Shown here: positions 2,119 through 22,560 of the stretch, one piece after another | Position numbering within the stretch: position 1 is the stretch's first letter | How the letters are laid out: each line of letters begins with the position of its first letter | IMG/VR virus record: IMGVR_UViG_3300047562_001688 | Span: 1-22,879 of that record | Length of the DNA stretch: 22,879 nucleotides | Direction: 5' to 3' (one strand) | Origin: a virus | Notes under the pieces: model-generated | What the model was told of the DNA's origin: nothing | Databases searched by the model: none | Seen by the model: the letters and a program-made list of their open reading frames with translations, nothing else | Made by a program: the position numbers and the translations under genes

Positions 2119-2126
2119 TATTTATC
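2119..2126 (-). promoter_or_regulatory. T4-type late promoter box for the 625-aa gene
   Basis: GATAAATA on the minus strand matches seven of eight bases of the T4 late -10 consensus TATAAATA. It overlaps the stop codon of the terminase gene and lies 7 nt before the ATG at 2111. With the usual T4 start-site spacing the transcript would carry almost no leader. No Shine-Dalgarno sequence is visible. Confidence 0.5.
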
Positions 2127-3714
2127 AAAAACCTGTGCTTATAAAGATCGGCATTGGGTACTCGTCTTCCGTCATTCTTTCAGTTAATTTTTCGTAGATT
2201 TTAGGATCCCAATCGGCTAATACGTTAGCCATCCTTACAACTAATAAGCAGGCTGATACAAGGTCATCGTGTTCACCTGTTTTTGCGTTATACCCAACAC
2301 CTGTTGCTACATACGTCTTTAATTCAGATATTAAGGGTTTACTGTTTATAATCATTTTGTCACGTTCAATTAAATTTTTAAGACCGCTACAAGCAGTAAT
2401 CTTGGTTTTATGAGTTGTGTTAAAGCCTTTTCTATATTTACGAACGTGGCCTTTTCTAATAGGTTCACTTAAAAATAGTCCGTTGAAATTTTCTTCCCCT
2501 ATATCTTTAATAACCACTAGTGCTGCTTCTCCTAAGGTATTATTTTCTACACTATAGTAGATAGTAGGGCTTCGATTTCCTTTTTCCATTGCTTGTGTAT
2601 TGATATACTGTAAAATTTCTCTAAGTATTTTAATTTGTTGTTGTATAGGAGTTAAATTATGTCTCCATTCACCAACTTGTTCCATAGTCGGCATTTCAAA
2701 TATTTGAATGGCTGCATAGTCACCACCGGTTCCTAAACTAGGATCAAGTGCTACAAGATATGTTGCATTTTGGTTTATCGGTTTGTACCAGCGTGTTTGG
2801 CCCATATTCATCATAGGCTCTTTTCCCTCTAATGCTGCAAGTTTAACACTGTTAATTAGAGTCTCATCAAAGATCAAGAATTCACAATCAAACTCACGAC
2901 GGAATCTTTCTTCACCGATCTTAGAACGTTCTTGATCAGCCCAGGCTTCATCTCTATCTGGATGTTCTTCCCAATGTGCAAAGAAAGGAAAGAAACCATT
3001 GGTTCCTACTTTTTGATCATTACCGTATTCGTCAAATTTTTTATTTGCTTCAGTCCAGATCATAGCAAATTGATCTTCATCTGAGTTTGGTGTTGATGTT
3101 ACAATCGCTTTACCACCTGTTGACAATGTAGGTGAAAGTGCAGTCCAAAATTCTTTGGCCTTCTCGGGTGGTTGAACGAATGCAAACTCGTCACAGTATA
3201 TTAACGAAAGTGACTTACCTCGACCAGTATCTTCTGTTGTTGTGGTTGCTTGTATTCGAGCACCGTTATCATATTCAATTGTGTTTCTGTTGTAGGTATA
3301 AACACCAGCACGAATAAAGTCGGGTAAATTTTCATAACCGAATCTATATCTATTCATAATATCCTGCGCACCTGTGTATTTGTGTGCAGCAATTAGAACC
3401 TGTGCTTCTGGAGTAAACATACAATACCATAATAGATAACCGGCTGCACAAGTAGTCTTACCCATCTGTCTAGGTAACATAGCAACACAATATCTATTTT
3501 CAGCATATGCTTGAATTAGTTCACGTTGGAACCCGTAAGGTACAAATTTTAATGAACCTAAAACAGGATGTTGAATCTTTAAAAAATTTTCACAGAAATA
3601 TAAAGGACCCGTGATGGGGTCCATACACGCTTCTAGATGTTTAACTTCTTCTAATGTGTATTTTTGTTTCTGGTGCGCCTTCTTAATCTGGACGCCATCT
3701 AAACTCTTTGCCAT
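2125..3714 (-). CDS. 17: Large terminase subunit, T4 gp17-like
   Basis: ATP-driven DNA packaging motor and headful nuclease that docks on the portal. The ATPase half shows a Walker A-like loop PRQMGKT (81-87), a Walker B strand ending in the acidic pair D175-E176 (LIYCDEFAF) and a coupling motif TSTPN (206-210). The C-terminal RNase H-fold nuclease shows D324 in VALDPSLGTGG, E390 in YYSVENN and D483/D484 in EHDDLVSA, the three acidic positions expected for gp17 nucleases. Its length of 529 aa is somewhat shorter than T4 gp17 (about 610), missing mainly N-terminal sequence. The ATG is supported by a late-type box ending 5 nt upstream and by lack of room for anything longer before the hairpin 3733-3756. 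The small subunit gp16 is encoded upstream, separated by three genes. Confidence 0.97.
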   Translation of the reverse strand: MAKSLDGVQIKKAHQKQKYTLEEVKHLEACMDPITGPLYFCENFLKIQHPVLGSLKFVPYGFQRELIQAYAENRYCVAMLPRQMGKTTCAAGYLLWYCMFTPEAQVLIAAHKYTGAQDIMNRYRFGYENLPDFIRAGVYTYNRNTIEYDNGARIQATTTTEDTGRGKSLSLIYCDEFAFVQPPEKAKEFWTALSPTLSTGGKAIVTSTPNSDEDQFAMIWTEANKKFDEYGNDQKVGTNGFFPFFAHWEEHPDRDEAWADQERSKIGEERFRREFDCEFLIFDETLINSVKLAALEGKEPMMNMGQTRWYKPINQNATYLVALDPSLGTGGDYAAIQIFEMPTMEQVGEWRHNLTPIQQQIKILREILQYINTQAMEKGNRSPTIYYSVENNTLGEAALVVIKDIGEENFNGLFLSEPIRKGHVRKYRKGFNTTHKTKITACSGLKNLIERDKMIINSKPLISELKTYVATGVGYNAKTGEHDDLVSACLLVVRMANVLADWDPKIYEKLTERMTEDEYPMPIFISTGF

Positions 3715-3719
3715 ACAAG

Positions 3720-3727
3720 TATTTACC
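3720..3727 (-). promoter_or_regulatory. T4-type late promoter box for gp17
   Basis: GGTAAATA on the minus strand, with TAAATA ending exactly 5 nt before the gp17 ATG. It follows the terminator at 3733-3756, so gp17 needs its own promoter, which supports this site. No Shine-Dalgarno sequence lies between the box and the ATG. Confidence 0.55.
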
Positions 3728-3732
3728 CAAGA

Positions 3733-3756
3733 AAATAGGGCCCAGAGGCCCTATTT
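3733..3756 (-). terminator. Terminator between the head-gene unit and gp17
   Basis: A perfect 10-bp stem (AAATAGGGCC at 3733-3742 with its complement at 3747-3756) and a 4-nt loop. On the minus strand the stem ends in TATTTTCTT, a short T tract. It separates the 142-aa gene from the late promoter of gp17. Confidence 0.75.
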
Positions 3757-3777
3757 GGATAGTTATGAAACTGTATA

Positions 3778-4206
3778 TTATGCTAGATTAAAACTGTTTT
3801 TTACTGTGCAAGTAACTGCTGTCATATCAAATGAATTATTACCATAAGTAGCGCCTAATGCAATAATTTCATCTTCAATTTGTTCTACTAGAGTTTCTGC
3901 GCCTGCTCCATCCCAATCTTGTGTATCATTTGCCATTTCTATAGCAAATGCCATTACTTGATTGGTAGAGTGTAAGTCGCCTCTAATAACGATAGTAGCA
4001 TACTTACCAATGATGTCAACAACTGCTTGAATTGCTTCGTTAGCACCAACTTCTGCGTTTGCTGCTGCACCAAAGTCAACTTCAAATAATGTTAAATCTT
4101 TATTTCCAGCATAATCAATTGTTGAAACACTTGCGGCTGGTTTACGATTTTCTGCAACTAATACCGAGCTGCCGCCGCCGATTGTTGCTGTTAATAAGTT
4201 TGCCAT
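3778..4206 (-). CDS. Small putative virion protein, 142 aa
   Basis: I do not recognise a family. The protein begins MANLLTATIGGGSSVLVAEN, is rich in small residues and beta-prone segments, and has no signal peptide, membrane segment or cysteine cluster. It has a helical stretch around residues 53-70 and an acidic segment near 95-115 (VEQIEDEIIAL). Its start overlaps the stop of the acidic upstream gene as TAATG (position 4206), so translation is probably coupled. It is the last gene of the gp54-like/gp4/gp16 unit, followed by the hairpin 3733-3756. The position among head-assembly genes suggests a minor structural or decoration protein; this is inference. Confidence 0.8.
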   Translation of the reverse strand: MANLLTATIGGGSSVLVAENRKPAASVSTIDYAGNKDLTLFEVDFGAAANAEVGANEAIQAVVDIIGKYATIVIRGDLHSTNQVMAFAIEMANDTQDWDGAGAETLVEQIEDEIIALGATYGNNSFDMTAVTCTVKNSFNLA

Positions 4207-4946
4207 TATTTCGCTCCTTTAGCCTCTGCTAGTCTTTGTAATAATTCTGCACGAATCTGTGATCTTAGATCGTCACCTTCTTTAACACGTTGCATAGGAT
4301 TGTCTCCACCTGCAACCTTAGGATGAGTTCCTTTAGGACGATTCATACCACCTGCAAGTTTGTTTTGCATATAGTCAATATCTCTTTCGTCTTCTTCAGG
4401 TTCATTTTCATACGCTTCTTCTTTATCTTCTTTATCTTCTTCGTCGTCGGAATCTTTTTCCATATCGTGATCATCCATATCGTGATCATCATCGCCGTCT
4501 CTGTCTAGAGTTTTTAATAAAGGTTTTTCTTTAGCGTGATCTTTTTCGTGTGCATCTAAATCACCTGAGTGATCATAGTCTGAATCCATTTCGCCGCCTG
4601 GCATATCATCGTTATCACCATCAAAGTCTGGAATTAACTTATTGATAGGTTTAATGCTGATAGGCATTGGCATTGGCATTGGCATTTCTGGTTTTGCAGG
4701 TTGATTAATCATATCCGGATTTACTTTAGTCATCAACTTGAGCATATCTTCAATATTATCCATACCTTGTGCATTAATATTAACGCTCATACTAGGAGGT
4801 GGTGTATCTTTTTTTGGCTCAATTGATGATACCGGTGGTGGCATCAATGACTGTGATGCATTTACACTATCACACCCGCAATTTTCGTTGTTAACAACTG
4901 GCGTATCAAGTTCCTGCATTTTTGATAGTAGTTCTTGAAAGTTCAT
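4206..4946 (-). CDS. Acidic putative head protein with an EF-hand-type loop
   Basis: No enzyme motif is visible. The protein has four zones: an N-terminal helix (MNFQELLSKMQELD); a Pro/Met-rich linker including a Met-Pro repeat at 88-95; an Asp/His/Glu-rich zone at about 105-190; and a conserved-looking C-terminal part (NRPKGTHPKVAGGDNPMQ, 202-219, then a helix to 246). Residues 123-134 (DYDHSGDLDAHE) fit the calcium-binding EF-hand loop DxDxSGxLDxxE exactly, and two further Asp-rich stretches (107-119, 148-162) are less perfect. I remember the C-terminal pattern from uncharacterised T4-like marine phage proteins. TAATG overlaps join it to both neighbours. A structural or scaffold-associated role inside the head is inference from its place beside gp4 and gp16. 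Confidence 0.85.
   Translation of the reverse strand: MNFQELLSKMQELDTPVVNNENCGCDSVNASQSLMPPPVSSIEPKKDTPPPSMSVNINAQGMDNIEDMLKLMTKVNPDMINQPAKPEMPMPMPMPISIKPINKLIPDFDGDNDDMPGGEMDSDYDHSGDLDAHEKDHAKEKPLLKTLDRDGDDDHDMDDHDMEKDSDDEEDKEDKEEAYENEPEEDERDIDYMQNKLAGGMNRPKGTHPKVAGGDNPMQRVKEGDDLRSQIRAELLQRLAEAKGAK
4460..4489. repeat. Two tandem 15-bp copies in the acidic gene
   Basis: CCATATCGTGATCAT is present twice in tandem (4460-4474 and 4475-4489). On the coding strand it gives the repeated peptide MDDHD. It looks like local duplication within the Asp/His-rich zone. Confidence 0.85.
4663..4686. repeat. Four tandem GGCATT hexamers
   Basis: GGCATT is repeated four times without a mismatch (4663, 4669, 4675, 4681). 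On the coding strand it produces the Met-Pro repeat at residues 88-95 of the acidic protein. It is a candidate for slippage-driven, in-frame length variation. Confidence 0.9.
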
Positions 4947-5533
4947 TATTTACTCCCTACAGGACTTTTAACGCCTGCTTTATCTGTTTTAATTTTAGGA
5001 ACATCTTGATAAACATCCGCCTTCAACTTATCGTGCCCTAATTCTTTTCTTCTTTCTTTTGCTTGTTTAGAAAGATCTTTTAAGAAAGATTTATTAAAGT
5101 CGTCACCGAAATAATCTTTGTGTTTGACTTTTACTGCTTCCTTGTATTCGTTATCGTGTAGCAATGCACCTTCGTAATCTTTATCTCCTGCTGTAATTTG
5201 ATCAATCTCGCTAGGACTTGCGCTGTTTCTAACTCGAAAATGTTCTGAATCACAGCAATTCATTTCTGTAATTTCTTTTTCAAGTTCAGGTGCAGTAAGT
5301 GGATACTCTGTCATTACGTCAAAAATATGAACTTCTACATTTTTAAGTTGCGGAAAGTCTAAAGGTAAGTCTTGTACAGGAGTAGTTTTTAACTGCTCAA
5401 ACTGCATAATTCCGCGACCCTCTAGTCTTTCTTTTAATTGCTCAGCAAAGTTTTCTGGTAGTTCACCAGCAACTTTAACCTTAAAACTATAGGTTTTCTT
5501 TGACTCTGATAGGTATTCTTTAAACGTCTTCAT
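4946..5533 (-). CDS. Putative head-internal protein with capsid-targeting-like N-terminus
   Basis: No enzymatic family is recognised. The N-terminus MKTFKEYLSE closely resembles the capsid-targeting peptide of T4 internal head proteins, which is cut by the gp21 protease after a (Leu/Ile)-x-Glu site; here L8-S9-E10 would be the cleavage site. The middle part is mixed alpha/beta (about 15-95), and the C-terminal half is charged and Lys-rich (about 125-195), a usual trait of DNA-associated internal proteins. The start is supported by a late-type box ending 5 nt before the ATG, overlapping the gp16 stop. Its own stop overlaps the next ATG as TAATG. Packaging into the prohead is inferred, not shown. 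Confidence 0.85.
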   Translation of the reverse strand: MKTFKEYLSESKKTYSFKVKVAGELPENFAEQLKERLEGRGIMQFEQLKTTPVQDLPLDFPQLKNVEVHIFDVMTEYPLTAPELEKEITEMNCCDSEHFRVRNSASPSEIDQITAGDKDYEGALLHDNEYKEAVKVKHKDYFGDDFNKSFLKDLSKQAKERRKELGHDKLKADVYQDVPKIKTDKAGVKSPVGSK

Positions 5534-5538
5534 ATGTA

Positions 5539-5546
5539 TATTTATT
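5539..5546 (-). promoter_or_regulatory. T4-type late promoter box inside the gp16 3' end
   Basis: AATAAATA on the minus strand (seven of eight to TATAAATA) ends 5 nt before the ATG at 5533. The following TACAT is identical to the spacer before the rightward gene at 12188. An AAGGA lies about 12 nt upstream of the ATG, too far for a good Shine-Dalgarno site. Confidence 0.5.
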
Positions 5547-6051
5547 CCTTTCCGCCCAATTTTCTAATTAATTCATTGCGATCTAGTACCACATAACCCT
5601 GTCCATCCATAACATCATTAGGATCATCTGGTGTATCTTTATCAATTTTTAACTTTTTAAGTTGTAAATCTACTGCTTTTAAGCGTTTATCAACCTTAGC
5701 AGTCTTAGCATCTATAGCATTTTTTATCATACTACTTGCTACTTCAAAAATTCTTCCGCTATATCTTACTTCAACATTCATACCCAAATCCATTAGATCG
5801 TCATATGCTTGTTCTGCTTTGGCTGCTAAATGATCTAACTCAGCATCACCTAAATTATCAAGTTCTCTAATTTGTGGTAGATCTTTTGTAATTTGGCTTA
5901 CTGCTTTATAACTGTCATCTAAACTCCTAACTTGTTGGTGTTTTTCTTCCGGATCACTAACTTCTTCAACAGGAGTCGTTTCTGTTGCCGTTACTGGCTC
6001 AGCAGTTTCTTTATCTTCCAAATTAAACAATTCTTCTAACTTTTTAGTCAT
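5542..6051 (-). CDS. 16: Small terminase subunit, T4 gp16-like
   Basis: Recognises phage DNA and stimulates the gp17 ATPase. The assignment rests on overall pattern: a variable acidic N-terminus (1-40), a central helical region around DDSYKAVSQITKDL (45-58), the helix containing GRIFEVASSMIKNAIDAKTAKVD (about 103-125), which matches the conserved FEV-x-x-x-(M/L)-I-K segment of gp16 proteins, and a C-terminal tail (VVLDRNELIRKLGGKE) of the gp16 type. Its 169 aa are close to T4 gp16 (164). It lies between gp4 and the putative internal protein and is unlinked from gp17 by three genes. A weak late-type box (GATAAGTA) ends 4 nt before the ATG. Small terminases diverge quickly, so this is less certain than gp17. 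Confidence 0.85.
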   Translation of the reverse strand: MTKKLEELFNLEDKETAEPVTATETTPVEEVSDPEEKHQQVRSLDDSYKAVSQITKDLPQIRELDNLGDAELDHLAAKAEQAYDDLMDLGMNVEVRYSGRIFEVASSMIKNAIDAKTAKVDKRLKAVDLQLKKLKIDKDTPDDPNDVMDGQGYVVLDRNELIRKLGGKE

Positions 6052-6055
6052 ACTG

Positions 6056-6063
6056 TACTTATC
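6056..6063 (-). promoter_or_regulatory. Weak late-type box before gp16
   Basis: GATAAGTA on the minus strand differs from TATAAATA at two positions and ends 4 nt before the gp16 ATG, overlapping the gp4 stop. Its position copies the better boxes before gp17, gp13 and the 195-aa gene, but the match alone is weak. Confidence 0.3.
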
Positions 6064-6499
6064 TTCTTTTACTACCGGTGTGAAAAATATCTTCTTCGTT
6101 AACTACTCGAAATCTAATACGTTGTTGTTTGCACCAAGAAGTTGCTGCTTCCCATTTTGCCATATTAAGAATGTATTGTTCTTGATTATATCGACTTTTT
6201 CCTACGTTCTCTCTCATAGTTTGATTTTTTGGTTTTACTTCAATTACTTCTGCGTGTTTCTTACCATCTTTAGATTTATAGACAATAAAAAAATCAGGAA
6301 CATAAATTGTATACTTTCCAGTTAACGGACTTTTATAAGGTATTTGAATACTTTCGCTGGCCCAACTTTCCACACCGGGATGTTCGTCGAGCATTCTCAT
6401 AAAAACAAATTCCCAACTACTTCTAGCAAGTGGTCTTTTCTTACCTACATACTTGCCAGGATTTTTCATCTCGAATCTTCCTTGGGCAAATTTAGGCAT
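6059..6499 (-). CDS. 4: Head completion protein, T4 gp4 (gp50)-like nuclease fold
   Basis: Acts after DNA packaging to finish the head before neck attachment. The sequence follows the gp4 pattern from end to end: a basic start with GRFEMKNPGKYVGKK (7-21), RSSWEFVFMRMLDEH (26-40), the strand ESIQIPYKSP (49-58), then VPDFF (67-71) and EVIEVKPKNQ (84-93). E30, D69, E87 and K89 form a PD-(D/E)xK arrangement as in TnsA-type endonucleases, so the fold appears catalytically intact. Its 146 aa match the family's usual length (about 150). The ATG overlaps the upstream stop as TAATG. Confidence 0.93.
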   Translation of the reverse strand: MPKFAQGRFEMKNPGKYVGKKRPLARSSWEFVFMRMLDEHPGVESWASESIQIPYKSPLTGKYTIYVPDFFIVYKSKDGKKHAEVIEVKPKNQTMRENVGKSRYNQEQYILNMAKWEAATSWCKQQRIRFRVVNEEDIFHTGSKRR

Positions 6500-6879
6500 T
6501 ATGGCACCACGTTACGTTGTTTGTTTACATCAGAAATAGGTTTTCTATAACCTAATGTTGATGTTGATGGTCTATTATTATTTAAAATTTCAGAAACTAA
6601 TCCACTGATTTCTAATTCAGTAAATCCTTTTAAGTCATCAAGGATTTTAAATATGTCAACGTTATCTAGTTTTGCTTGTTTTAATAATACCGCAGCACTT
6701 ATTAATGCAGCATCTTTATCAAATCCTTTTGATTCAAAAAAGTTAATCGAAGCATCAATGTCAGGAACTTTATATGATAAAGGCTCAACACCATATGTGT
6801 CAAAAAACAATTTAGTTCTTGCACCACTGTCTTGTATTTGTTTTGCTGGTAAATTTGTTTGCGTATTGATGTTTGACAT
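6499..6879 (-). CDS. Conserved 126-aa protein next to gp4
   Basis: I cannot give a function. The protein is mostly helical: a motif QDSGARTKLFFDTYG (16-30), then helices containing SINFFESKGFDKDAALISAAVLL (about 45-67) and a segment FKILDDLKGFTELEISGLVSEILN (about 76-99), ending with STLGYRK and RNVVP. I remember this C-terminal ending from uncharacterised T4-like marine phage proteins placed between the tube initiator and gp4, so it is likely a conserved assembly or minor virion protein. It starts 3 nt after the gp54-like stop and ends in a TAATG overlap with gp4. No Shine-Dalgarno site is clear, which fits coupled translation. Confidence 0.85.
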   Translation of the reverse strand: MSNINTQTNLPAKQIQDSGARTKLFFDTYGVEPLSYKVPDIDASINFFESKGFDKDAALISAAVLLKQAKLDNVDIFKILDDLKGFTELEISGLVSEILNNNRPSTSTLGYRKPISDVNKQRNVVP

Positions 6880-6882
6880 TTC

Positions 6883-7992
6883 TTATAGCCCTGTAATCTG
6901 TCCTGCTGGATTAGTTGCTAATTTTTTTGCATTTGCAGGAGTATTTTCATTTTGTGAATCATTCTTAGGAAATATTGCGCCAGCCACTCCACTGATTGTG
7001 TTGGCTATCTTTTGTGTTCCTGCCGGACTTGTAAGTATATTAATTGCCTCTGCCTTAAGTCCATCTTTGCTCAAACTTTTTATGTTTTTAAAAGTATTCA
7101 CAGCCTTGATTGCTGTTCCTAAAAATCCTTGTCCTGAACCAAATGCCTCGCCATTTTCAACTGCGCCAAACACTTGCTCTAATCCATCTAACACACCACC
7201 TTCACCAAAAAGATTACTGACGCCACCGCCGGCTACAGTTAACGGACTTGGGGTGTTGTCATAATGCAGTGTTGCAAATCCTTTTGGAGATCCTTCACTA
7301 ACTCTTCCAGCGGAATATAAAACGGCTTCGTATGAAACAGACATTGAAGACTCTGCTGGCTCACTTGTTGCAGAGTAATCCATCGTGCCGTGTTCCCAAT
7401 TTTTAATTTTAGGATTAACTAATGTATATCCAATAAATCTTCTTCTACCCATTGTATAAATTGTTATACTTTTAAACAACGGAGTACTTACGTCATTATC
7501 TAAACCGTATCTAAAACTGTTTGCGCCTTCACCAATTGCCGGTCTATAGTTGGTCTTATTGCCGTATGCTGCTGCCACGTTGTGTCTATCTCTTACATAG
7601 TATCCATAGTAGACAGCCCACAATGCACTAACAACACCTTGATTATCATCGTGGAAGGTCATACTCACATCATCATAATTTAACATTTTATAGATAATAT
7701 GTTTTCTATTATATTCGTTGAGTACTTCAGTATCAAAACTAAATTTAGGAAGATCGCAGGTCTTAATTAATAATCCAAATTCGTTTATATGTTTTGATGT
7801 AAAATTAGTTGCTTTGTTTGCACTAGAATCTAATTCAAATCGAACATAATAGTTAAATTTCGTCTTGGGAGCAAGACGCATTGTATCATCAATGAAGAGT
7901 CTAGTGGCGTGTTGTTGGTTACCTACTATTCCTCTCGGATTCGTAAGTCCACTGAATACATCTGTTAGAAATCTAGTAAATTTATTGGCCAT
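6883..7992 (-). CDS. 54: Baseplate tail-tube initiator, T4 gp54-like
   Basis: A tail-tube-fold protein that caps the baseplate hub and starts tube polymerisation. Residues 45-115 carry the tube-family pattern: KFNYYVRFEL, then IKTCDLPKFSFDTEVLNEYN and the strand YDDVSMTFHDD. A second half (about 165-250) with ITIYTMGRRRFIGYTLVNP and MSVSYEAVLY completes the fold. A tail of about 120 residues, rich in Gly, Ala and Ser, follows; T4 gp54 (320 aa) has different extra sequence. The order gp18, gp19, gp54-like also fits tail assembly. I favour gp54 over a second gp19 because of its length and mixed sequence, but the gp54 symbol is by pattern only. It is preceded by the strong hairpin 8011-8039 and a late-type box ending 5 nt before the ATG. 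Confidence 0.75.
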   Translation of the reverse strand: MANKFTRFLTDVFSGLTNPRGIVGNQQHATRLFIDDTMRLAPKTKFNYYVRFELDSSANKATNFTSKHINEFGLLIKTCDLPKFSFDTEVLNEYNRKHIIYKMLNYDDVSMTFHDDNQGVVSALWAVYYGYYVRDRHNVAAAYGNKTNYRPAIGEGANSFRYGLDNDVSTPLFKSITIYTMGRRRFIGYTLVNPKIKNWEHGTMDYSATSEPAESSMSVSYEAVLYSAGRVSEGSPKGFATLHYDNTPSPLTVAGGGVSNLFGEGGVLDGLEQVFGAVENGEAFGSGQGFLGTAIKAVNTFKNIKSLSKDGLKAEAINILTSPAGTQKIANTISGVAGAIFPKNDSQNENTPANAKKLATNPAGQITGL

Positions 7993-7997
7993 ACTAT

Positions 7998-8005
7998 TAT
8001 TTAGC
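7998..8005 (-). promoter_or_regulatory. T4-type late promoter box for the gp54-like unit
   Basis: GCTAAATA on the minus strand; TAAATA ends exactly 5 nt before the ATG at 7992. It directly follows the terminator at 8011-8039, so the downstream unit needs a promoter here. There is no Shine-Dalgarno sequence in the intervening bases. Confidence 0.5.
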
Positions 8006-8010
8006 CATAA

Positions 8011-8039
8011 AAAAAGCCCGGAAAAAATCCGGGCTTTTT
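8011..8039. terminator. Strong bidirectional-type terminator after gp19
   Basis: A perfect 11-bp stem (AAAAAGCCCGG at 8011-8021 with its complement at 8029-8039), a 7-nt loop and T tracts on both strands. It lies 20 nt past the gp19 stop and ends the sheath/tube transcript, separating it from the less abundant tube initiator and head-completion genes. Confidence 0.9.
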
Positions 8040-8058
8040 AAAATAATAGTAAAAACTA

Positions 8059-8700
8059 TTAACCTTGTGCAGCAGTAGCACCAGTAGTTGCATTGCCGAT
8101 TGTTCTTTCGACAGCAGCACCAATACCAACGCCAACACCTTGTTCTCCTGCACCCCATTGTACCATATTGTCAAAACGTATGGTTAATGCTACAGTTGCA
8201 GCCTCGTTAGTACCATAGTTCATATCACCATAGTCAACGTTAGTTAGGAAACAACCATAAAGGTTAGAAGTTTCAAGTACATTAACGCCGGATGGGTTGT
8301 TACCATTACCGCCGTCTAGTACTTCAATTTTAGTTGTAAACTTATAGTCAATACCAGATCTTGCAGAAGCCTGTTCAACAAAGTCAAACTGTTTCTGAAC
8401 CTGTTGACCAACTAGTTTCTGTACTTCACCAGTTGCATCATCACGCAAGTTTAGTGTAACAGTTTCAAATGTATACTTACCTGCTAGGTATACACGTGAG
8501 TTGTACACTTCTAATGGCATTTCTTCAAAACCAACTTTTGGTCTTGTGACATCAACAACTTGCTTTGTAAGTTCAGTCGCAGCCGTTACTCCGAATCCAA
8601 GTAAAGTAACGCGGAAGCGATACTTTAACTTAGGCATCAAGAGCACTTGGTTGCCTGCGTCTGTTGGTACTCCAAAGTTATTTAAAGATGTAATAGGCAT
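8059..8700 (-). CDS. 19: Tail tube protein, T4 gp19-like
   Basis: Forms the inner tube through which DNA is ejected. The tube fold is visible as LKYRFRVTLLGFG (25-37), a segment DVTRPKVGFEEMPLEVYNSRVYLAGKYTF split around residues 50-78, VTLNLRDDATGEV (81-93) and, after a loop, NLYGCFLTNVDYGDMNYG (146-163) with ATVALTIRFDN (168-178). The length of 213 aa exceeds T4 gp19 (163); the extra sequence is a loop near 125-145 and a Gly/Ala-rich tail. It follows gp18 with a 2-nt gap, and AGGAG (8711-8715) within the gp18 end is a good Shine-Dalgarno site. High expression is expected for a major structural protein. Confidence 0.93.
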   Translation of the reverse strand: MPITSLNNFGVPTDAGNQVLLMPKLKYRFRVTLLGFGVTAATELTKQVVDVTRPKVGFEEMPLEVYNSRVYLAGKYTFETVTLNLRDDATGEVQKLVGQQVQKQFDFVEQASARSGIDYKFTTKIEVLDGGNGNNPSGVNVLETSNLYGCFLTNVDYGDMNYGTNEAATVALTIRFDNMVQWGAGEQGVGVGIGAAVERTIGNATTGATAAQG

Positions 8701-8702
8701 AA

Positions 8703-11700
8703 TTAAATTTCTCCTGTGTTCTTGACACGCAACGGAATGTAAATGAATTCAACAGCCTTAACAGGTTCAATAGCAATGTCTACGTATAGTTCATTTCTAT
8801 CAATTCTTGCTGGGGTGTTGTTGGTTTCATCACAAACAACAGCGAAATCATAAAGAGCTCTTAAACCAACCAATTCAAGTAGTAATGATTCTACTGCTTG
8901 TTTGATTTCGTCTCTAGTGATTTTATCATTTGGTTCAAATATATACGGACGAGCCAACTTGTTCAACTGACTACGTAGGTATACTACCAAACGTGCTACG
9001 TTGATTCTATCTAGTGCAGAAGCATTTCTTGCACGAGTTTTTTGACCGTAGTTGACCAAACCAACTCCATTAAAGAATGTAATTGGGTTAATCTTTAGAT
9101 CGTACAACGTATCTCTTTGGCCTTCGTTCAACGCTACAGTTTGGAATTCTCCAGTAGCAGCATCAATGTAACCTACTGCTGTTGCGTTACTAATTCCGCC
9201 TCGTCTTGTACCTGCTGGTGCAAACCAAGGGAACGATACCTGATCGCTAAGTGCGATAGTTCTTAGCATCATATGTGAAGCCGGAACTACTGCGTTTGCT
9301 CCGCCTAGGTCAGTTGTAAATCCGTTTGGATAAAAAGCACCTAAGTATTCGTCATATGTTACTAATCCATCATCACTATTGTCTGTTACTAGATTAGCAT
9401 TTGAACCATAGTTTGTAAGTGAAGTTGCATCTGCTCTTAATCTTAATGGTGTATCACCAATAACAAATGCAGTAAGTCCTCTGTCAATGTTTAAGTTAAC
9501 AAGATTACTCATCACTTCTGTGTAACCAGGAGCAGCAATAATGTTGAAGTTTCTACGCTCTTCGTCTCTGATTTGATCACTTGTATCAATCACAGATTTC
9601 ATTGCTTGTACAACAACCATACGCTGTGCCTTTCTGCCAAATGATCCGCTACCATCTTCTTGGTTGCCTGACTGTGTTACCCAACGGTCAGTTGCGTAAC
9701 CACTCATTGCTTGATCATTAAAGCGTGTATTGTCTGCTGTGGTATCGATATAGTTATTTGCATAACGTTTAACGTTACCGCCACTTCTACGTAAGTTCCA
9801 TAACAACATACCTTTTGGATATAGTGCTGGATCTGGAGCATCTGGATCTAAGTAGTTGCTTGTTAATAGGTCTACAATAGTTGCTGCTGTATTACCATTA
9901 GCACCACTTAAACCATAACGTGCATCTCCAAATAAGACTCCGTCTTCAGTAGTTTGATCTGTTTTATCTAATTGTACCCACTCTAGCAAATCACCATTCC
10001 AACGATACATTGTTGGGAAGTTTTCAATATCTGCTGTGCTAATCCATAAGTCGCCATCAACAAGCGGTGTACCGTCGCTTTGACCAGTAGTTGCACTTGG
10101 TGCTGTTGCGCTTACAATAGGACCATTTGGTGAACAGTTAGCGTATGCTACACTGTAGTTGTGGTAGCCAACCCAAGTAGTACCATTATGAATCATAATG
10201 TCTACATCGCTAAACTCTGGATTGTACCATAACTGGCCATCATCTGGTTCGTTTTCTGGATTGTCAGAACTTGCATAGAAGTTTCTAGCAGCCAATGGTT
10301 CCCAGTTAGAAGCAATGTAGTCTTGACTTGCTCCTGCTGGTGCGCTGTAAAAGTTTGAAGTTCCAACTAGTGTGTTAATGCTGAAAGGTGTAAACACATT
10401 TCCAACTGGAGTGTTTGTACCATCAGTAATTCTAAAGTCTCCACCTAGTTTGTGGAAAATTTGTACTTCGTTGTCTGCTGTAATTGCTGCTTCAACGTTT
10501 GTAAGTCCAGCGGAGTTAATAGCGTTTGCCATTAATTCTGCGTCACCTACAGCACCTGTAGCAGTAAATGAAATTGTTACTGCACTAGATAGTGCTGCTG
10601 AACCTTTAACACCTTCTTGAATATTAAAAGTGTTTGATCCAACTGTAAATGAACTTGCATCAATTTCTGCTGATTTAATTACAGTATTACCTGTTGCTGA
10701 TCTTCTCCAAACTCTAAATGATGCTGTTGCTGGAGTTGAATCATAGTTGCTGTGTTCGTTACTGTTTGACTGTACAAAAAGACTGTCAACTGGAAGATTA
10801 ACACCACCACCTGATCTATCTAGGTAGTAAATTGCCTCGTTTCCTGTTGCATAAAGAGGTGCATCAACCACCTGCCAAGTAGCAAGACTTGAAGACCAGT
10901 TATAAGCTCTCCATCTTGCACCGTTGTTTGGTTCAGTAGTTTTAACCCATACACTTCCTGTTGGACGAGATTCTGAATCTGCTGTTTTCCATTGAGGAAC
11001 ACTAGTGTGTGGAGTCATTTGTACTACTGGTCCATAATATGTATCTTTAGCAATACCTAATGCAGTAAAGTCAACGTTCGGTGTTGTTCCACCATCGTCA
11101 ATAATGATTGCGTTTGCTAATGAGCTGTCGCCAACTGAATCATCAAGTGTACCGTCACTGTAAAGATAAAGTTTGCCACTTACGTTTCTAGCAACAATAC
11201 CCTGTGTTTCTGTAATAGAACCGTTGATTGCAGTAACTAAATCATCAAGTGTACCTGTAATTTCAAAGTCAGTACCATTGATAGTAAAGTGTCCTGAAGT
11301 TGCACTCATTGTACCGCCAATCACTGTTGGGTGACTTGCTGTCCAATCATTGCTTCCTACTAGTACCCAAGTACCTGATGTAACTGTTGAACCATTACCT
11401 GCAGATTTGTAATAGATTTTTGCTGTTTCTTTAGAAGCAGTAAACGAACCGCTACCATCTACTGTTTCAAATACAACTGCATAATCTCCGATAGCACCAA
11501 CTGAACCTTTAGGTGCTCCGTTATCAATTTTTGAACTATCGTCATCTGTTAATACGATAGGTGTTTTGTTAGCAAATTTTTGTCCGCCTGTAGTTGTAAC
11601 TGCTGCGCCATTCCATTCTTGAATACCCCAAGCAGTACCTCTAGTGTCGATCCACCAAGTGCCATTATCCGGATTCGCTCCCGGTGCTTCTGATTGTCCT

Positions 11701-12059
11701 GACAGTTCTGCAAGATCTACATCCGCTCTTACTACGAACGCTGCGTTAGAAACACCTAGTAAACTATATGCTGCTAATAAACCGTATTCGTTAAGTTCGC
11801 TGCCGTGGATAGGCGTATTACTTGCTGTCTTTTCAAAGTTTGGTACTCCGAAAAGATCTACTAATTCTTTCTGTGATGTTACCTTGAATGCAGAGCCTGC
11901 ATTCGCTTTTGTAGTCGCTGCGGCAGTTCCAGTGCCAGCGGCATTTATTTTGTCTTGTGCGGTTGCTACAACAATTAAAGGAGTCGTACCCGGTTCAGCA
12001 GGGGTATAAAAACTCTCATCAATTACCGTAACTTCAACGCCGGGTGATTGTAGTGCCAT
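8703..12059 (-). CDS. 18: Tail sheath protein, T4 gp18-like, with a very large insertion
   Basis: The contractile sheath subunit. The N-terminal sheath part begins SPGVEVTVIDES (5-16) with the linking strand expected for mesh-forming arms. The conserved C-terminal core is at about 715-1118, including RRNFNIIAAPGY (835-846), SDQVSFPWFAPAGTRRGGI (938-956), TFFNGVGLVNYGQKT (994-1008) and the final strand VEFIYIPLRV. The protein is 1118 aa against 659 in T4; about 585 residues (121-705) are inserted between core parts. The insert contains four Trp-rich modules and two stretches that resemble flagellin IN-motif segments. AGGAG (12069-12073) lies 9 nt before the ATG, and a late box lies about 55 nt upstream, giving an ordinary leader. 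Confidence 0.95.
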   Translation of the reverse strand: MALQSPGVEVTVIDESFYTPAEPGTTPLIVVATAQDKINAAGTGTAAATTKANAGSAFKVTSQKELVDLFGVPNFEKTASNTPIHGSELNEYGLLAAYSLLGVSNAAFVVRADVDLAELSGQSEAPGANPDNGTWWIDTRGTAWGIQEWNGAAVTTTGGQKFANKTPIVLTDDDSSKIDNGAPKGSVGAIGDYAVVFETVDGSGSFTASKETAKIYYKSAGNGSTVTSGTWVLVGSNDWTASHPTVIGGTMSATSGHFTINGTDFEITGTLDDLVTAINGSITETQGIVARNVSGKLYLYSDGTLDDSVGDSSLANAIIIDDGGTTPNVDFTALGIAKDTYYGPVVQMTPHTSVPQWKTADSESRPTGSVWVKTTEPNNGARWRAYNWSSSLATWQVVDAPLYATGNEAIYYLDRSGGGVNLPVDSLFVQSNSNEHSNYDSTPATASFRVWRRSATGNTVIKSAEIDASSFTVGSNTFNIQEGVKGSAALSSAVTISFTATGAVGDAELMANAINSAGLTNVEAAITADNEVQIFHKLGGDFRITDGTNTPVGNVFTPFSINTLVGTSNFYSAPAGASQDYIASNWEPLAARNFYASSDNPENEPDDGQLWYNPEFSDVDIMIHNGTTWVGYHNYSVAYANCSPNGPIVSATAPSATTGQSDGTPLVDGDLWISTADIENFPTMYRWNGDLLEWVQLDKTDQTTEDGVLFGDARYGLSGANGNTAATIVDLLTSNYLDPDAPDPALYPKGMLLWNLRRSGGNVKRYANNYIDTTADNTRFNDQAMSGYATDRWVTQSGNQEDGSGSFGRKAQRMVVVQAMKSVIDTSDQIRDEERRNFNIIAAPGYTEVMSNLVNLNIDRGLTAFVIGDTPLRLRADATSLTNYGSNANLVTDNSDDGLVTYDEYLGAFYPNGFTTDLGGANAVVPASHMMLRTIALSDQVSFPWFAPAGTRRGGISNATAVGYIDAATGEFQTVALNEGQRDTLYDLKINPITFFNGVGLVNYGQKTRARNASALDRINVARLVVYLRSQLNKLARPYIFEPNDKITRDEIKQAVESLLLELVGLRALYDFAVVCDETNNTPARIDRNELYVDIAIEPVKAVEFIYIPLRVKNTGEI

Positions 12060-12114
12060 TTACTTTATCTCCTGGTAATGTAATTTCAATTCATTACGTA
12101 ATGTATTGCTAATG

Positions 12115-12122
12115 TATTTAGT
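12115..12122 (-). promoter_or_regulatory. T4-type late promoter box for gp18-gp19
   Basis: ACTAAATA on the minus strand (six of eight to TATAAATA). It would give a leader of about 50 nt that includes the AGGAG site of gp18. In contrast to most other boxes here it lies well upstream of the start codon. Confidence 0.5.
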
Positions 12123-12174
12123 GTAGATTTAGAAAAAAGCCCATTTATACCGCTTGAAAAAGGGGTGTTAAAGG

Positions 12175-12182
12175 TGTAAATA
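12175..12182 (+). promoter_or_regulatory. Late-type box for the HNH-like gene
   Basis: TGTAAATA on the plus strand, with TAAATA ending 5 nt before the ATG at 12188. The TATACATATG context is the same as before the leftward gene at 5533. It lies back-to-back with the gp18 promoter in the 128-bp gap. Confidence 0.4.
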
Positions 12183-12187
12183 TACAT

Positions 12188-12523
12188 ATGAGACCATTAT
12201 GTAAGTGTGGTTTACGGCCAAAAGCAGTAAACTATAAAAAAGGAAACAAGACATACTACCGCAGTCTGTGCGAAATATGTATGAAGCACGGTACCTATTA
12301 TGGAATACCTAGATGGTATAGAAGTGGTTACCGAGTTAAAGACAAATGTGATAAGTGTGGATTTAAATCAATACACTCTGAAGTATTTCGTGTGTTTCAC
12401 GTAGACGCAAACTTAGATAACTGTAGGCATAGTAACCTAAAAACTGTTTGTGCTAATTGCTGTACTGTCCTTGCTAAAGAAGGTATTAAATGGAAGCAAG
12501 GAGATCTTGTGGCTGACTTTTAA
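12188..12523 (+). CDS. Zinc-finger, HNH-endonuclease-like protein
   Basis: A 111-aa Cys-rich protein. Cysteine pairs occur at C5/C7, C28/C31, C54/C57 and C88/C91 (with C92), enough for two zinc sites. The segment 67-92, with VFHVDANLDNC followed by HSNLKTVCANC, resembles the HNH nuclease core: H71 after a beta strand, Asn75, Asn83 and the closing Cys pair, bracketed by the earlier C54/C57 pair. The first His of a canonical HNH pair is unclear, so activity is uncertain. Such genes occur in T4-like phages as free-standing nucleases, but I cannot say whether this one homes. It is a lone rightward gene whose last 38 bp overlap the 3' end of gp1 on the other strand. Confidence 0.75.
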   Translation: MRPLCKCGLRPKAVNYKKGNKTYYRSLCEICMKHGTYYGIPRWYRSGYRVKDKCDKCGFKSIHSEVFRVFHVDANLDNCRHSNLKTVCANCCTVLAKEGIKWKQGDLVADF

Positions 12524-13136
12524 TATTCAAAGTTAACTCAATTTGATCGTATAAATCTTGTATAGTTCCATCATTAACTAGTTCAACATCAAACTTGGTT
12601 CCAACCCAAGCCCATTCAGAAGCGTGTATGTTTTTAGTCTGCATTGCATTGATTGCGTTCATCATTCCATCGTTGGCGCTAAGAGCAGTTTCATACCAAC
12701 TAGGCAATTTACCTCTTTTAACCCATACAATTTTTCCACCATTCTTTCTAATGGCGTTTACTTCATTAGGAAAACGACAGTCTGAAATCACTACGTTATC
12801 TTTACTTTGTCGAATTTTGTTTTCTAAACTTGCTACCCAAATATCGTCGTGAAATGCTCTGCGACAGACTTCAGTTCCCCAATATTGAAGAACCCAACGA
12901 GGAGTTAATGTAGGCATAGCAAGGCGTTCTGCCCACCACTTATCTACTTGTTCTCTCCATTCACGTGCTTCTTTAGTTCTGCCTTCAAGCATTGTGCGAT
13001 CCCAACCAAATACAGCAGAAACAGCATCTTTCAATGTGTTAGCAAAACTTTCTCTACGAAATTCGTGAAAATTAACAAGGTAATCAGCAACAGTATCTTT
13101 GCCACTACCAATGAATCCACAAACGCCTACAATCAT
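12486..13136 (-). CDS. 1: Deoxynucleoside monophosphate kinase, T4 gp1-like
   Basis: Phosphorylates dNMPs to dNDPs for phage DNA synthesis in the cytoplasm. It has a P-loop GFIGSGKDT (7-15), the segment SFANTLKDAVSAVFGWDR (about 31-48), typical of gp1-type kinases, the RWVLQYWGTEVCRR region (81-94) and DCRFPNEVNAI (119-129) with a downstream basic segment. Its 216 aa are slightly shorter than T4 gp1 (241). AGGAG (13143-13147) lies 6 nt before the ATG, and a near-perfect sigma70 promoter lies just upstream. It is therefore probably transcribed early, although surrounded by late structural genes. It converges on the HNH-like gene with a 38-bp overlap. Confidence 0.92.
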   Translation of the reverse strand: MIVGVCGFIGSGKDTVADYLVNFHEFRRESFANTLKDAVSAVFGWDRTMLEGRTKEAREWREQVDKWWAERLAMPTLTPRWVLQYWGTEVCRRAFHDDIWVASLENKIRQSKDNVVISDCRFPNEVNAIRKNGGKIVWVKRGKLPSWYETALSANDGMMNAINAMQTKNIHASEWAWVGTKFDVELVNDGTIQDLYDQIELTLNIKSQPQDLLASI

Positions 13137-13159
13137 AATATTCTCCTAAGTATGATTGT

Positions 13160-13188
13160 ATTATAAACGTTCTTTAGATGTTTGTCAA
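13160..13188 (-). promoter_or_regulatory. Consensus sigma70 promoter for gp1
   Basis: On the minus strand TTGACA (13183-13188) and TATAAT (13160-13165) are separated by 17 nt: both hexamers and the spacing are the full bacterial consensus. Transcription would start near 13153, six bases upstream of the AGGAG of gp1. The -35 lies immediately after the stop of the upstream basic-protein gene. Confidence 0.9.
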
Positions 13189-13191
13189 GAG

Positions 13192-13530
13192 TTAAATGTA
13201 AGGTCTTGGCTGTTGTGGCTTGCCTGTATTAAGTTTTCTAGCCAAAACACTTGCTGTATTGATTGATTTGGTACGTTTTTGACGTCTAGCCTGTGTTGGT
13301 GCTGTTCTAGCACGAGTTCTTTTCATACGTTGTGCTGCCGCAACATCATATTGTTGAACACATTTTGAAGGATGACTTACTTGTCTACCTGCTCTTGGAC
13401 CTGATGAACAACGAAAACGTAGTTTGGTTTTTCCTCCGCGTTGATTGTGTTTACCAACGCCCCAAACCATTTTAGCAACTTCATTATAAATTTCTTCGTC
13501 ACTTTCAAAAATAAATTCTGATGCTTTCAT
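13192..13530 (-). CDS. Small basic putative head protein
   Basis: I do not recognise an enzyme. The 112-aa protein starts MKASEFIFESDEE; residues I7-F8-E9 fit the (Leu/Ile)-x-Glu cleavage rule of T4 prohead protease, and the start resembles a capsid-targeting peptide. The rest is strongly basic: LRFRCSSGPRAGRQVSHPSK (about 38-57) followed by an Arg/Lys-rich tail (67-100), consistent with nucleic acid binding. I remember the GPRAGR segment from short uncharacterised proteins of marine T4-like phages. The ATG overlaps the gp13 stop as TAATG, so it belongs to the gp13 transcript. An internal DNA-binding head role is inference. Confidence 0.8.
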   Translation of the reverse strand: MKASEFIFESDEEIYNEVAKMVWGVGKHNQRGGKTKLRFRCSSGPRAGRQVSHPSKCVQQYDVAAAQRMKRTRARTAPTQARRQKRTKSINTASVLARKLNTGKPQQPRPYI

Positions 13531-14288
13531 TATCCGTTAATCCAAGTGTATCCTGAGCCGCCCGGAACTAGAGTTACTAGTTCGGCTGTTAGTCTTTCAA
13601 TGTCTTGAAAGCCTTCTTGTTTTAGTGTTGCACCATTAAGTGCTGTACCGCCCTGTGGTCCTGCAATAGAAGCAAATTTTTCACGAGCCTGTCCTAACAT
13701 TACTTTACAGTTTGCTAATGTGTAATCTTTGATCCATTGACTTGCATAGACATCTTGCAAAATAACAAAATCTGGTTTACTGTTATAACACCATAGTAAT
13801 ACATTTTCCTCACCTCGAGGACGTTGCATTATAACCAATTTTTTGCTCTGAGGATGCCAAGTAAAATTAATAAATGATCCAAACATTTTACCAACTAGTT
13901 CTTGGTAACCTGCAAACAACTCGTAAGTTGCTAGGCCTCCCATATTAGTAGAACTTAATAGATAAGTGTTTGTATAAGCAAGGTTAAATGGTTCAAACAC
14001 TGTTCCGCCTGTTCCATTTCCTGTTCTACTACCTACGCTTCTGCGATAGATTTGTCTTACCTGCTGTATTTCTTGTGGTAAAACATACTCGTTTTGGTCT
14101 TTCTGTAATGTAAGTGTTATATAACTTTCTTCAACAGAATTATCACTGCGCTGTCTAAATACACCCAGCGATCTTATTAATGCTGTTTCGTAATGATTAG
14201 GGTCTAGTTCGACGTCGATCATACCGTCGCCGAGCATAGTCTTACAATAATCAAAAACCTTTTGTTTTTCAATGTCAATTTGGCTCAT
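13530..14288 (-). CDS. 13: Neck protein, T4 gp13-like
   Basis: Closes the packaged head and connects to the tail with gp14. Two regions follow T4 gp13: near the N-terminus GMIDVELDPNHYETALIRSL (17-36) corresponds to the INVELTPDQ segment of T4, and near the C-terminus WIKDYTLANCKVMLGQAREKF (about 183-203) followed by GGTALNGATLKQEG corresponds to the T4 segment before its Pro/Gly-rich end. Its 252 aa are shorter than T4 gp13 (309), the difference lying in the middle. The start is supported by a late-type box ending 5 nt upstream. It is transcribed away from gp14, its usual neighbour and partner, across a 44-bp gap. Confidence 0.82.
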   Translation of the reverse strand: MSQIDIEKQKVFDYCKTMLGDGMIDVELDPNHYETALIRSLGVFRQRSDNSVEESYITLTLQKDQNEYVLPQEIQQVRQIYRRSVGSRTGNGTGGTVFEPFNLAYTNTYLLSSTNMGGLATYELFAGYQELVGKMFGSFINFTWHPQSKKLVIMQRPRGEENVLLWCYNSKPDFVILQDVYASQWIKDYTLANCKVMLGQAREKFASIAGPQGGTALNGATLKQEGFQDIERLTAELVTLVPGGSGYTWING

Positions 14289-14293
14289 ATAAC

Positions 14294-14301
14294 TATTTAT
14301 G
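14294..14301 (-). promoter_or_regulatory. T4-type late promoter box for gp13
   Basis: CATAAATA on the minus strand matches seven of eight bases of TATAAATA and ends 5 nt before the gp13 ATG. With standard T4 spacing transcription would begin at or next to the A of the start codon. Confidence 0.6.
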
Positions 14302-14316
14302 CCTTGTGCTAGAAAC

Positions 14317-14324
14317 GGTAAATA
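14317..14324 (+). promoter_or_regulatory. T4-type late promoter box for gp14
   Basis: GGTAAATA on the plus strand (six of eight to TATAAATA), ending 8 nt before the ATG at 14333. It is back-to-back with the gp13 box 15 bp away. Confidence 0.5.
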
Positions 14325-18842: not shown

Positions 18843-18850
18843 TATTTAGT
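18843..18850 (-). promoter_or_regulatory. T4-type late promoter box for the 283-aa fibre-like gene
   Basis: ACTAAATA on the minus strand overlaps the TAA stop of the protease gene and would place the start site just upstream of the GAGG ribosome-binding site. It matches the gp18 box base for base over these eight positions, including the following C. Confidence 0.45.
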
Positions 18851-22084: not shown

Positions 22085-22092
22085 TATTTATC
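22085..22092 (-). promoter_or_regulatory. T4-type late promoter box for the fibre/protease unit
   Basis: GATAAATA on the minus strand (seven of eight to TATAAATA) with a leader of about 18 nt that contains CGGAGA. This is an ordinary T4-style late promoter with a ribosome-binding site. Confidence 0.6.
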
Positions 22093-22164: not shown

Positions 22165-22560
22165 ATGAATCAAAGATTAGAAGGAAAAGTCAAAAAGGGA
22201 TGGGGATACGAACTCATTTGGGCAACCAATGACAAATATTGTGGCAAGATCATGGTATTTGAAAACAAGGGTGCAAAATTTTCTATGCACTTTCATAGAG
22301 AAAAAGAAGAAACTTGGTTTGTAAATTCGGGCAAATTTCTTCTTCGTTGGATAGACACAAGCACTGCCACCCTTCACACAAAGGAACTGACTCAGGGAGA
22401 TACTTGGCATAATCCTCCATTACAACCGCATCAACTGGAAGCACTCGAACCCATGAGTGAAATCTTTGAGGTTAGTAGTGCAGATAGCGTGGAGGACAAT
22501 TATAGAATTGCTCCTGGAGATAGTCAAAGTAATGATGAAAAAAATAGTAGTCAACGGTAG
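22165..22560 (+). CDS. Cupin-fold protein, mannose-6-phosphate isomerase-like
   Basis: A 131-aa single-domain cupin. The opening VKKGWGYELIWATND (9-23) is the usual start of sugar-isomerase-type cupins. The metal site is visible as H42 and H44 with Glu48 or Glu49 in MHFHREKEETWFV (41-53), and H89 in PPLQPHQLEAL (84-94). The first ~110 residues carry the fold; the last ~20 are a polar tail that overlaps the next gene. It is likely to act on a nucleotide-sugar or sugar phosphate, but small cupins are diverse and the substrate cannot be read from the sequence. It overlaps by 29 nt with the nucleotidyltransferase that follows, suggesting coupled translation and a shared pathway. Confidence 0.85.
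   Translation: MNQRLEGKVKKGWGYELIWATNDKYCGKIMVFENKGAKFSMHFHREKEETWFVNSGKFLLRWIDTSTATLHTKELTQGDTWHNPPLQPHQLEALEPMSEIFEVSSADSVEDNYRIAPGDSQSNDEKNSSQR

Follow-up and report, generated by a model that had tools for sequence, protein, structure and literature searches.

Whether a T4-type phage may begin its late messenger RNAs (mRNAs) at the start codon itself is the question raised by the window analysed here, that is, the whole of a 22.9-kb piece (22,879 nucleotides, nt) of an uncultured virus with T4-like morphogenesis genes aboard (IMG/VR record IMGVR_UViG_3300047562_001688). The original prediction had noticed that TAAATA, the core of the T4-type late promoter, ends exactly 5 nt before five start codons and 7 or 8 nt before two others, and that a weak box lies 4 nt before a gene labelled gp16. 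All these placements were confirmed in the sequence, the weak box being TAAGTA in front of a gene for 169 amino acids (aa):

2119..2124, minus strand: late box TAAATA, 7 nt before the ATG (2111) of a 625-aa virion protein gene; spacer CTTTACT, predicted 3-nt leader ACU.
3720..3725, minus strand: late box TAAATA, 5 nt before the ATG (3714) of the terminase large subunit gp17.
5539..5544, minus strand: late box TAAATA, 5 nt before the ATG (5533) of a 195-aa structural/internal head-like gene; it overlaps the preceding gene's stop codon.
6056..6061, minus strand: variant box TAAGTA, 4 nt before the ATG (6051) of the 169-aa terminase-small-subunit-like ("gp16") gene, which has a weak phrog_445 match.
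7998..8003, minus strand: late box TAAATA, 5 nt before the ATG (7992) of a 369-aa tail-tube-like ("gp54-like") gene.
12177..12182, plus strand: late box TAAATA, 5 nt before the ATG (12188) of a 111-aa "HNH-like" gene.
14294..14299, minus strand: late box TAAATA, 5 nt before the ATG (14288) of a gp13-like head-tail adaptor.
14319..14324, plus strand: late box TAAATA, 8 nt before the ATG (14333) of a gp14-like virion protein; predicted 3-nt leader ACU.

Late mRNAs starting at the start codon had been predicted for these genes, and comparative evidence together with the published register of gp55 promoters (PMC7892883) supports this proposal well. A probability of roughly 0.85 is given to the reading that T4-type late promoters are here fused to start codons, which would yield late mRNAs that are either leaderless or preceded by a 3-nt leader. 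The latter form (ACU-AUG) fits the genes with 7- and 8-nt spacing better than the strict leaderlessness first proposed for them.

The window encodes the terminase gp17, a tail sheath, tail tubes, gp13- and gp14-like neck proteins, a gp15-like sheath stabilizer and baseplate genes. Two labels of the original prediction had to be given up, since the 369-aa protein matches tail-tube PHROGs (phrog_13438 and phrog_4542) instead of gp54, and no HNH family was detected in the 111-aa protein. Phage records searched with the window for near-identity gave zero matches, and the closest named terminases, at ~54% identity, are those of the giant phages Phosso and PA5oct; the group to which the window belongs is one of aquatic, T4-related giant phages. 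From 160 related loci that were retrieved, homologous start codons were located by aligning each window protein.

Spacing was evaluated on TAAATA-to-ATG distances of 0-40 nt before open reading frames (ORFs) of at least 70 aa. Within 40 nt, 5 of the 15 spacings in the window are exactly 5 nt (p = 2e-5), while TATAAATA-like sites as such are no more numerous than expected (44 vs 55), so the signal lies in position and not in number. Clustering of the distance across related genomes, as the original prediction had anticipated, was indeed found, which contradicts an absence of excess at 5 nt: each of seven larger relatives shows it (p from 3e-7 to 9e-13), and so does the phage HTVC008M (p 2e-10). 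T4, Syn9, PA5oct and CBB have no such excess, and in Melnitz it does not reach significance (p 0.08).

In an unbiased screen, every hexamer was counted at every distance of 0-23 nt upstream of the start in the seven large relatives (92-364 kb, some incomplete; 1,543 first-ATG starts, mostly from shared gene families and thus not all independent). TAAATA at 5 nt came first (65 seen vs 4.6 expected, log10 p about -50), above the Shine-Dalgarno (SD) hexamer AAGGAG. It was likewise first in HTVC008M (12 seen vs 0.67 expected), T4, CBB, PA5oct and Melnitz being led by SD-like signals and Syn9 by none.

Gene by gene, the register is conserved. The box stands at exactly 5 nt before gp13 in 56 of 56 relatives and before the 195-aa gene in 46 of 49; for the "HNH-like" gene it does so in 57 of 65 (4 nt in 4), for the 369-aa gene in 40 of 47 (4 nt in 7) and for gp17 in 28 of 39 (4 nt in 9). 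Among the 35 relatives of the 625-aa gene, 24 have the box at 5 nt and 11 at 7 nt, and the 56 of gp14 show it at 7 nt (29) or 8 nt (24). Relatives of window genes that have no box rarely show one at 4-8 nt. Many relatives also have the variant TAAGTA, at 4 or 5 nt, and for that reason the one before the 169-aa gene is probably a genuine box. The 169-aa family shares it with a 127-aa family, both having TAAGTA 4-5 nt before the ATG and neither having TAAATA, which suggests that the late sigma factor tolerates G there or that these are weaker leaderless promoters.

HTVC008M and its relatives amount to an independent repeat of the same pattern, with the box at 5 nt before gp54 in 23/23 and before gp2 in 7/9; in HTVC008M itself, 12 cases fall on start codons annotated by others. 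Wrongly assigned start codons were considered as a source of the register and rejected: in five genes the ATG is the most upstream ATG, GTG or TTG of its ORF, and changes in codons 2-13 are biased to third positions, so the ATG is the real start.

Several features place the predicted transcription start on the ATG. In the structure of gp55-RNA polymerase on the T4 gene 23 promoter, adenines are read at -12 and -9 from the transcription start (PMC7892883), from which we deduce that TATAAATA would occupy -13 to -6 and +1 would lie six nt after the box; with a gap of 5 nt, +1 would then be the A of the ATG. The base at -1 is a pyrimidine in 65/65 starts with 5-nt spacing, vs 170/428 (40%) of SD starts (p 6e-24), which fits the usual initiator preference before a start purine. 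At spacings of 7-8 nt, 9/15 end in ACT-ATG, consistent with a 3-nt leader. Start codons at 5 nt are almost exclusively ATG, both in the clade (76 ATG, 0 GTG, 1 TTG) and in HTVC008M (12, 0 and 1). SD sites are weaker in box genes than in the others, as the original prediction had expected across relatives, with medians of -2.9 vs -5.8 kcal/mol in the clade and 0.4 vs -4.15 in HTVC008M.

Strong upstream terminators also speak against a normal leader, their T-runs beginning ~20 nt before the ATG and the terminators of gp17 and the 369-aa gene ending 15-20 nt before it:

3733..3756, minus strand: terminator-like hairpin AAATAGGGCC..GGGCCCTATTTT, directly upstream of the gp17 late box; fold z -3.6.
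8009..8039, minus strand: intrinsic terminator AAAGCCCGG..CCGGGCTTTTTTT, which lies just ahead of the late box of the 369-aa gene and ends ~15 nt from the ATG; folding energy -19.3 kcal/mol, z -4.2.

A hairpin with T-run similar to that of gp17 occurs in 38/47 relatives, its T-run also ~20 nt before the ATG, and 44/44 relatives of the 369-aa gene have a terminator. Likewise, gp13 and gp14 are divergent with start codons 45 bp apart, and the divergent gp2 and gp4 of HTVC008M have theirs 24-27 bp apart, so that two leaders, each with its SD site, would hardly fit or not fit at all.

A factor that would read these boxes is encoded by related phages. A gp55-like sigma was detected in 6/10 large relatives and in PA5oct; with gp55 of HTVC008M as query, homologues were found in the relatives G001-G005 and G008 (E 1e-13 to 1e-14). 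HTVC008M has both gp33 and gp45 annotated. Taking this together, a gp55-like sigma on the host RNA polymerase would recognize the TAAATA core, and the box, active as a promoter, would bring the start point of the polymerase onto the A of the start codon. Late mRNAs made in this way would open with AUG (at spacings of 7-8 nt, with a 3-nt ACU leader before it) and, having no SD site, would be translated by the leaderless route, in which the ribosome binds the 5'-terminal AUG. For other late genes of these genomes, the abundant gp18 included, this box would lie at a greater distance, with a short leader and a strong SD between it and the start codon.

Some observations weigh against this scheme. 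In leadered late promoters of the clade, the preference for a purine at the sixth position after the box is modest (65%), and families with the box at 4 nt would require a start point one base closer. A pairwise search of six relatives with gp45 of HTVC008M found nothing, probably because the protein is too divergent. Moreover, the absence of a well-placed SD, as originally described, holds, but conserved purine-rich, SD-like stretches (AAAGGA and AAAGGTG) are present 12-16 nt ahead of the ATG, on the 5' side of the predicted +1, in the 195-aa gene, which lies in an operon, and in the "HNH-like" gene, so that translation of both genes from a longer read-through mRNA is possible.

This last point bears on a dual mode, in which a leaderless monocistronic mRNA from the box would coexist with longer read-through mRNAs made earlier or in parallel, the longer form having more weight for genes within operons (the 195-aa and gp16-like ones). 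We regard it as a tentative option, compatible with start-codon promoters and limiting them to part of the genes. The box of the 195-aa gene overlapping the upstream stop codon, its conserved AAAGGA 12-13 nt upstream, and the variant box as the only one of the gp16-like gene all speak for it, but it misfits genes that follow a terminator or belong to a divergent pair, for which a longer mRNA is not expected. Much less credit is due to TAAATA acting as an A/U-rich translation signal, e.g., for ribosomal protein S1, that replaces the SD on a longer leadered mRNA. A/U-rich upstream regions can in general aid initiation without SD, and several box genes, such as the 195-aa one, sit inside operons; nonetheless, considering that (i) the register is exactly 5 nt, with a steep drop at 3 and 6 nt, (ii) the box matches both the T4 late core and the leadered late boxes of the same genomes, and (iii) terminators lie just upstream and divergent pairs are 24-45 bp apart, all of which ask for a transcription start at the box, such a signal appears very unlikely.

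Base composition, by which AT-rich upstream DNA would yield TAAATA near starts by chance, can draw on the AT-richness of these genomes and on the unraised count of TATAAATA-like sites in the window. However, permuted hexamers give a mean far under the count observed at 5 nt, TAAATA heads the unbiased screen, the equally AT-rich T4, PA5oct and CBB show no 5-nt class, and the spacing is conserved across dozens of divergent contigs; the probability left to chance is negligible. Promoters fused to start codons are thus retained as the preferred reading, at the probability given above.

Not all late genes would follow this layout. In leadered late genes of the same genomes, a strong SD follows a box located 14-60 nt before the start, and the window contains the following cases:

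12142..12149, minus strand: candidate leadered late promoter TATAAATG, upstream of gp18 (ATG 12059), which has the strong SD CCAGGAG.
18843..18848, minus strand: leadered late box TAAATA, 16 nt before the ATG (18826) of a 283-aa baseplate-connector gene; SD GAGG, same layout in the relative G005.
22085..22090, minus strand: leadered late box TAAATA, 23 nt before the ATG (22061) of a 374-aa gene; SD CGGAGA.

In relatives, gp18 has an SD of -7.1 kcal/mol and TAAATA 36-58 nt upstream. The sheath protein of the window (8703-12059, minus strand) has 1118 aa vs ~659 aa of T4 gp18, and its PHROG match spans the full length. At 22165-22560 (plus strand), a 131-aa cupin-domain protein is encoded; its gene is preceded by a late box at 26 nt and lacks a clear SD site. 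The adjoining 369-aa and 213-aa genes at 6883-8700 (minus strand) both match tail-tube families, one being predicted as leaderless and the other having a strong SD.

The original prediction had further proposed that leadered messages serve abundant virion proteins and leaderless ones low-copy assembly proteins. Its first half is borne out by gp18, gp19 and gp23, the most abundant virion proteins of T4, which here are genes with a strong SD and no adjacent box. The second half did not stand: a baseplate-hub-like protein and the baseplate wedge connector (G005), as well as portal, protease and baseplate genes (HTVC008M), are low-copy yet leadered, which rules out a strict rule equating low copy with leaderless, and the predicted leaderless set also holds auxiliary genes (cytidylyltransferase/cupin, CHASE2 cyclase, CsgF). 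Abundance may therefore explain which genes keep an SD, and not which are leaderless.

Compared with the late promoters of T4 (gp55/gp33/gp45), those described here share the TAAATA core, the position of the box from -13 to -6 relative to the predicted +1, the late structural genes served and, in most large relatives, a gp55-like sigma. On the contrary, the two 5' bases (TA) of the T4 octamer are not fixed in the window boxes, and late boxes of T4, Syn9, CBB and PA5oct keep no fixed distance to the ATG, whereas here a large share lies at exactly 5 nt without SD. The pelagimyophages (HTVC008M and relatives) also have TAAATA 5 nt before gp54, gp2, gp4, gp3, gp53-like and tape-measure-like genes, but they belong to another lineage (Kyanoviridae, infecting SAR11) and have another spacer consensus (GTAnT vs CTAGT/ATAGT). 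A general trait of alphaproteobacterial T4-like phages is not supported, phiM12, Cr30 and ORM_20 being without excess and Atu_ph07 showing a slight one (15 vs 9 in the reversed control). The longest relative (G001; L185:5409-5852 and L184:17561-19606) and HTVC008M (L268:7562-13807) share a CsgF protein and a CHASE2-guanylate cyclase, which suggests gene exchange between the two lineages.

Leaderless mRNAs of bacteria, archaea and some phages resemble the predicted ones in their 5'-terminal AUG, lack of SD, nearly invariable use of AUG and a promoter core just upstream of the start. A phage example is lambda cI transcribed from PRM. To our knowledge, the known phage cases are single genes, unlike the genome-wide class predicted here, which would be tied to a phage-specific late sigma. 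Phage-specific late promoters are also found in the giant phages AR9 and phiKZ, though neither has a TAAATA core: the motif of phiKZ is TATG, and AR9 employs its own RNA polymerases, the motif AACA-N6-TA/G and leaders of 26-491 nt (PMC5312081).

A leaderless habit imposed by the host is unsupported, since a 394-kb sample of SAR11-type (Pelagibacteraceae) genome (L489-L508) showed no -10 box at the start codon, a result of low power; host habit thus does not seem to explain the phage pattern. The failure to find such a signal in this sample also counts against the preferred reading. The same sample shows no positional enrichment of any SD hexamer before first-ATG ORFs, a hint that SD sites matter little to this host. 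A gene for the ribosomal protein bS21 was found in G001 (G001:C1:292290-292445, minus strand), HTVC008M, Melnitz and PA5oct, and not in T4, Syn9 or CBB. The bS21 protein, which HTVC008M and G001 both encode, sits near the anti-SD region of 16S rRNA. It is conceivable, albeit improbable, that leaderless translation is a main late route in two separate aquatic T4-related lineages, possibly through a regulatory switch by which the phage, late in infection, would favour ribosomes that accept 5'-AUG messages; PA5oct and Melnitz have bS21 without a significant leaderless class, so this idea is only a lead.

Late transcription of T4 is a textbook system, its late genes being treated as leadered with SD. 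No report of leaderless T4-type late mRNAs was found in the openly accessible literature, and the proposed arrangement would combine T4-type late promoters with leaderless mRNA, each known on its own. Late-promoter prediction has been reported to fail in pelagimyophages (PMC7029224), for which boxes lying against the start codon may be one likely reason; the 5-nt spacing itself offers a simple rule to find start codons and late genes in such genomes. With T4-type promoters apparently joined to start codons throughout a gene class in two aquatic phage lineages, it becomes a testable question how and why leaderless mRNAs would be translated during infection, and since HTVC008M and its host are both cultured, a direct test is feasible.

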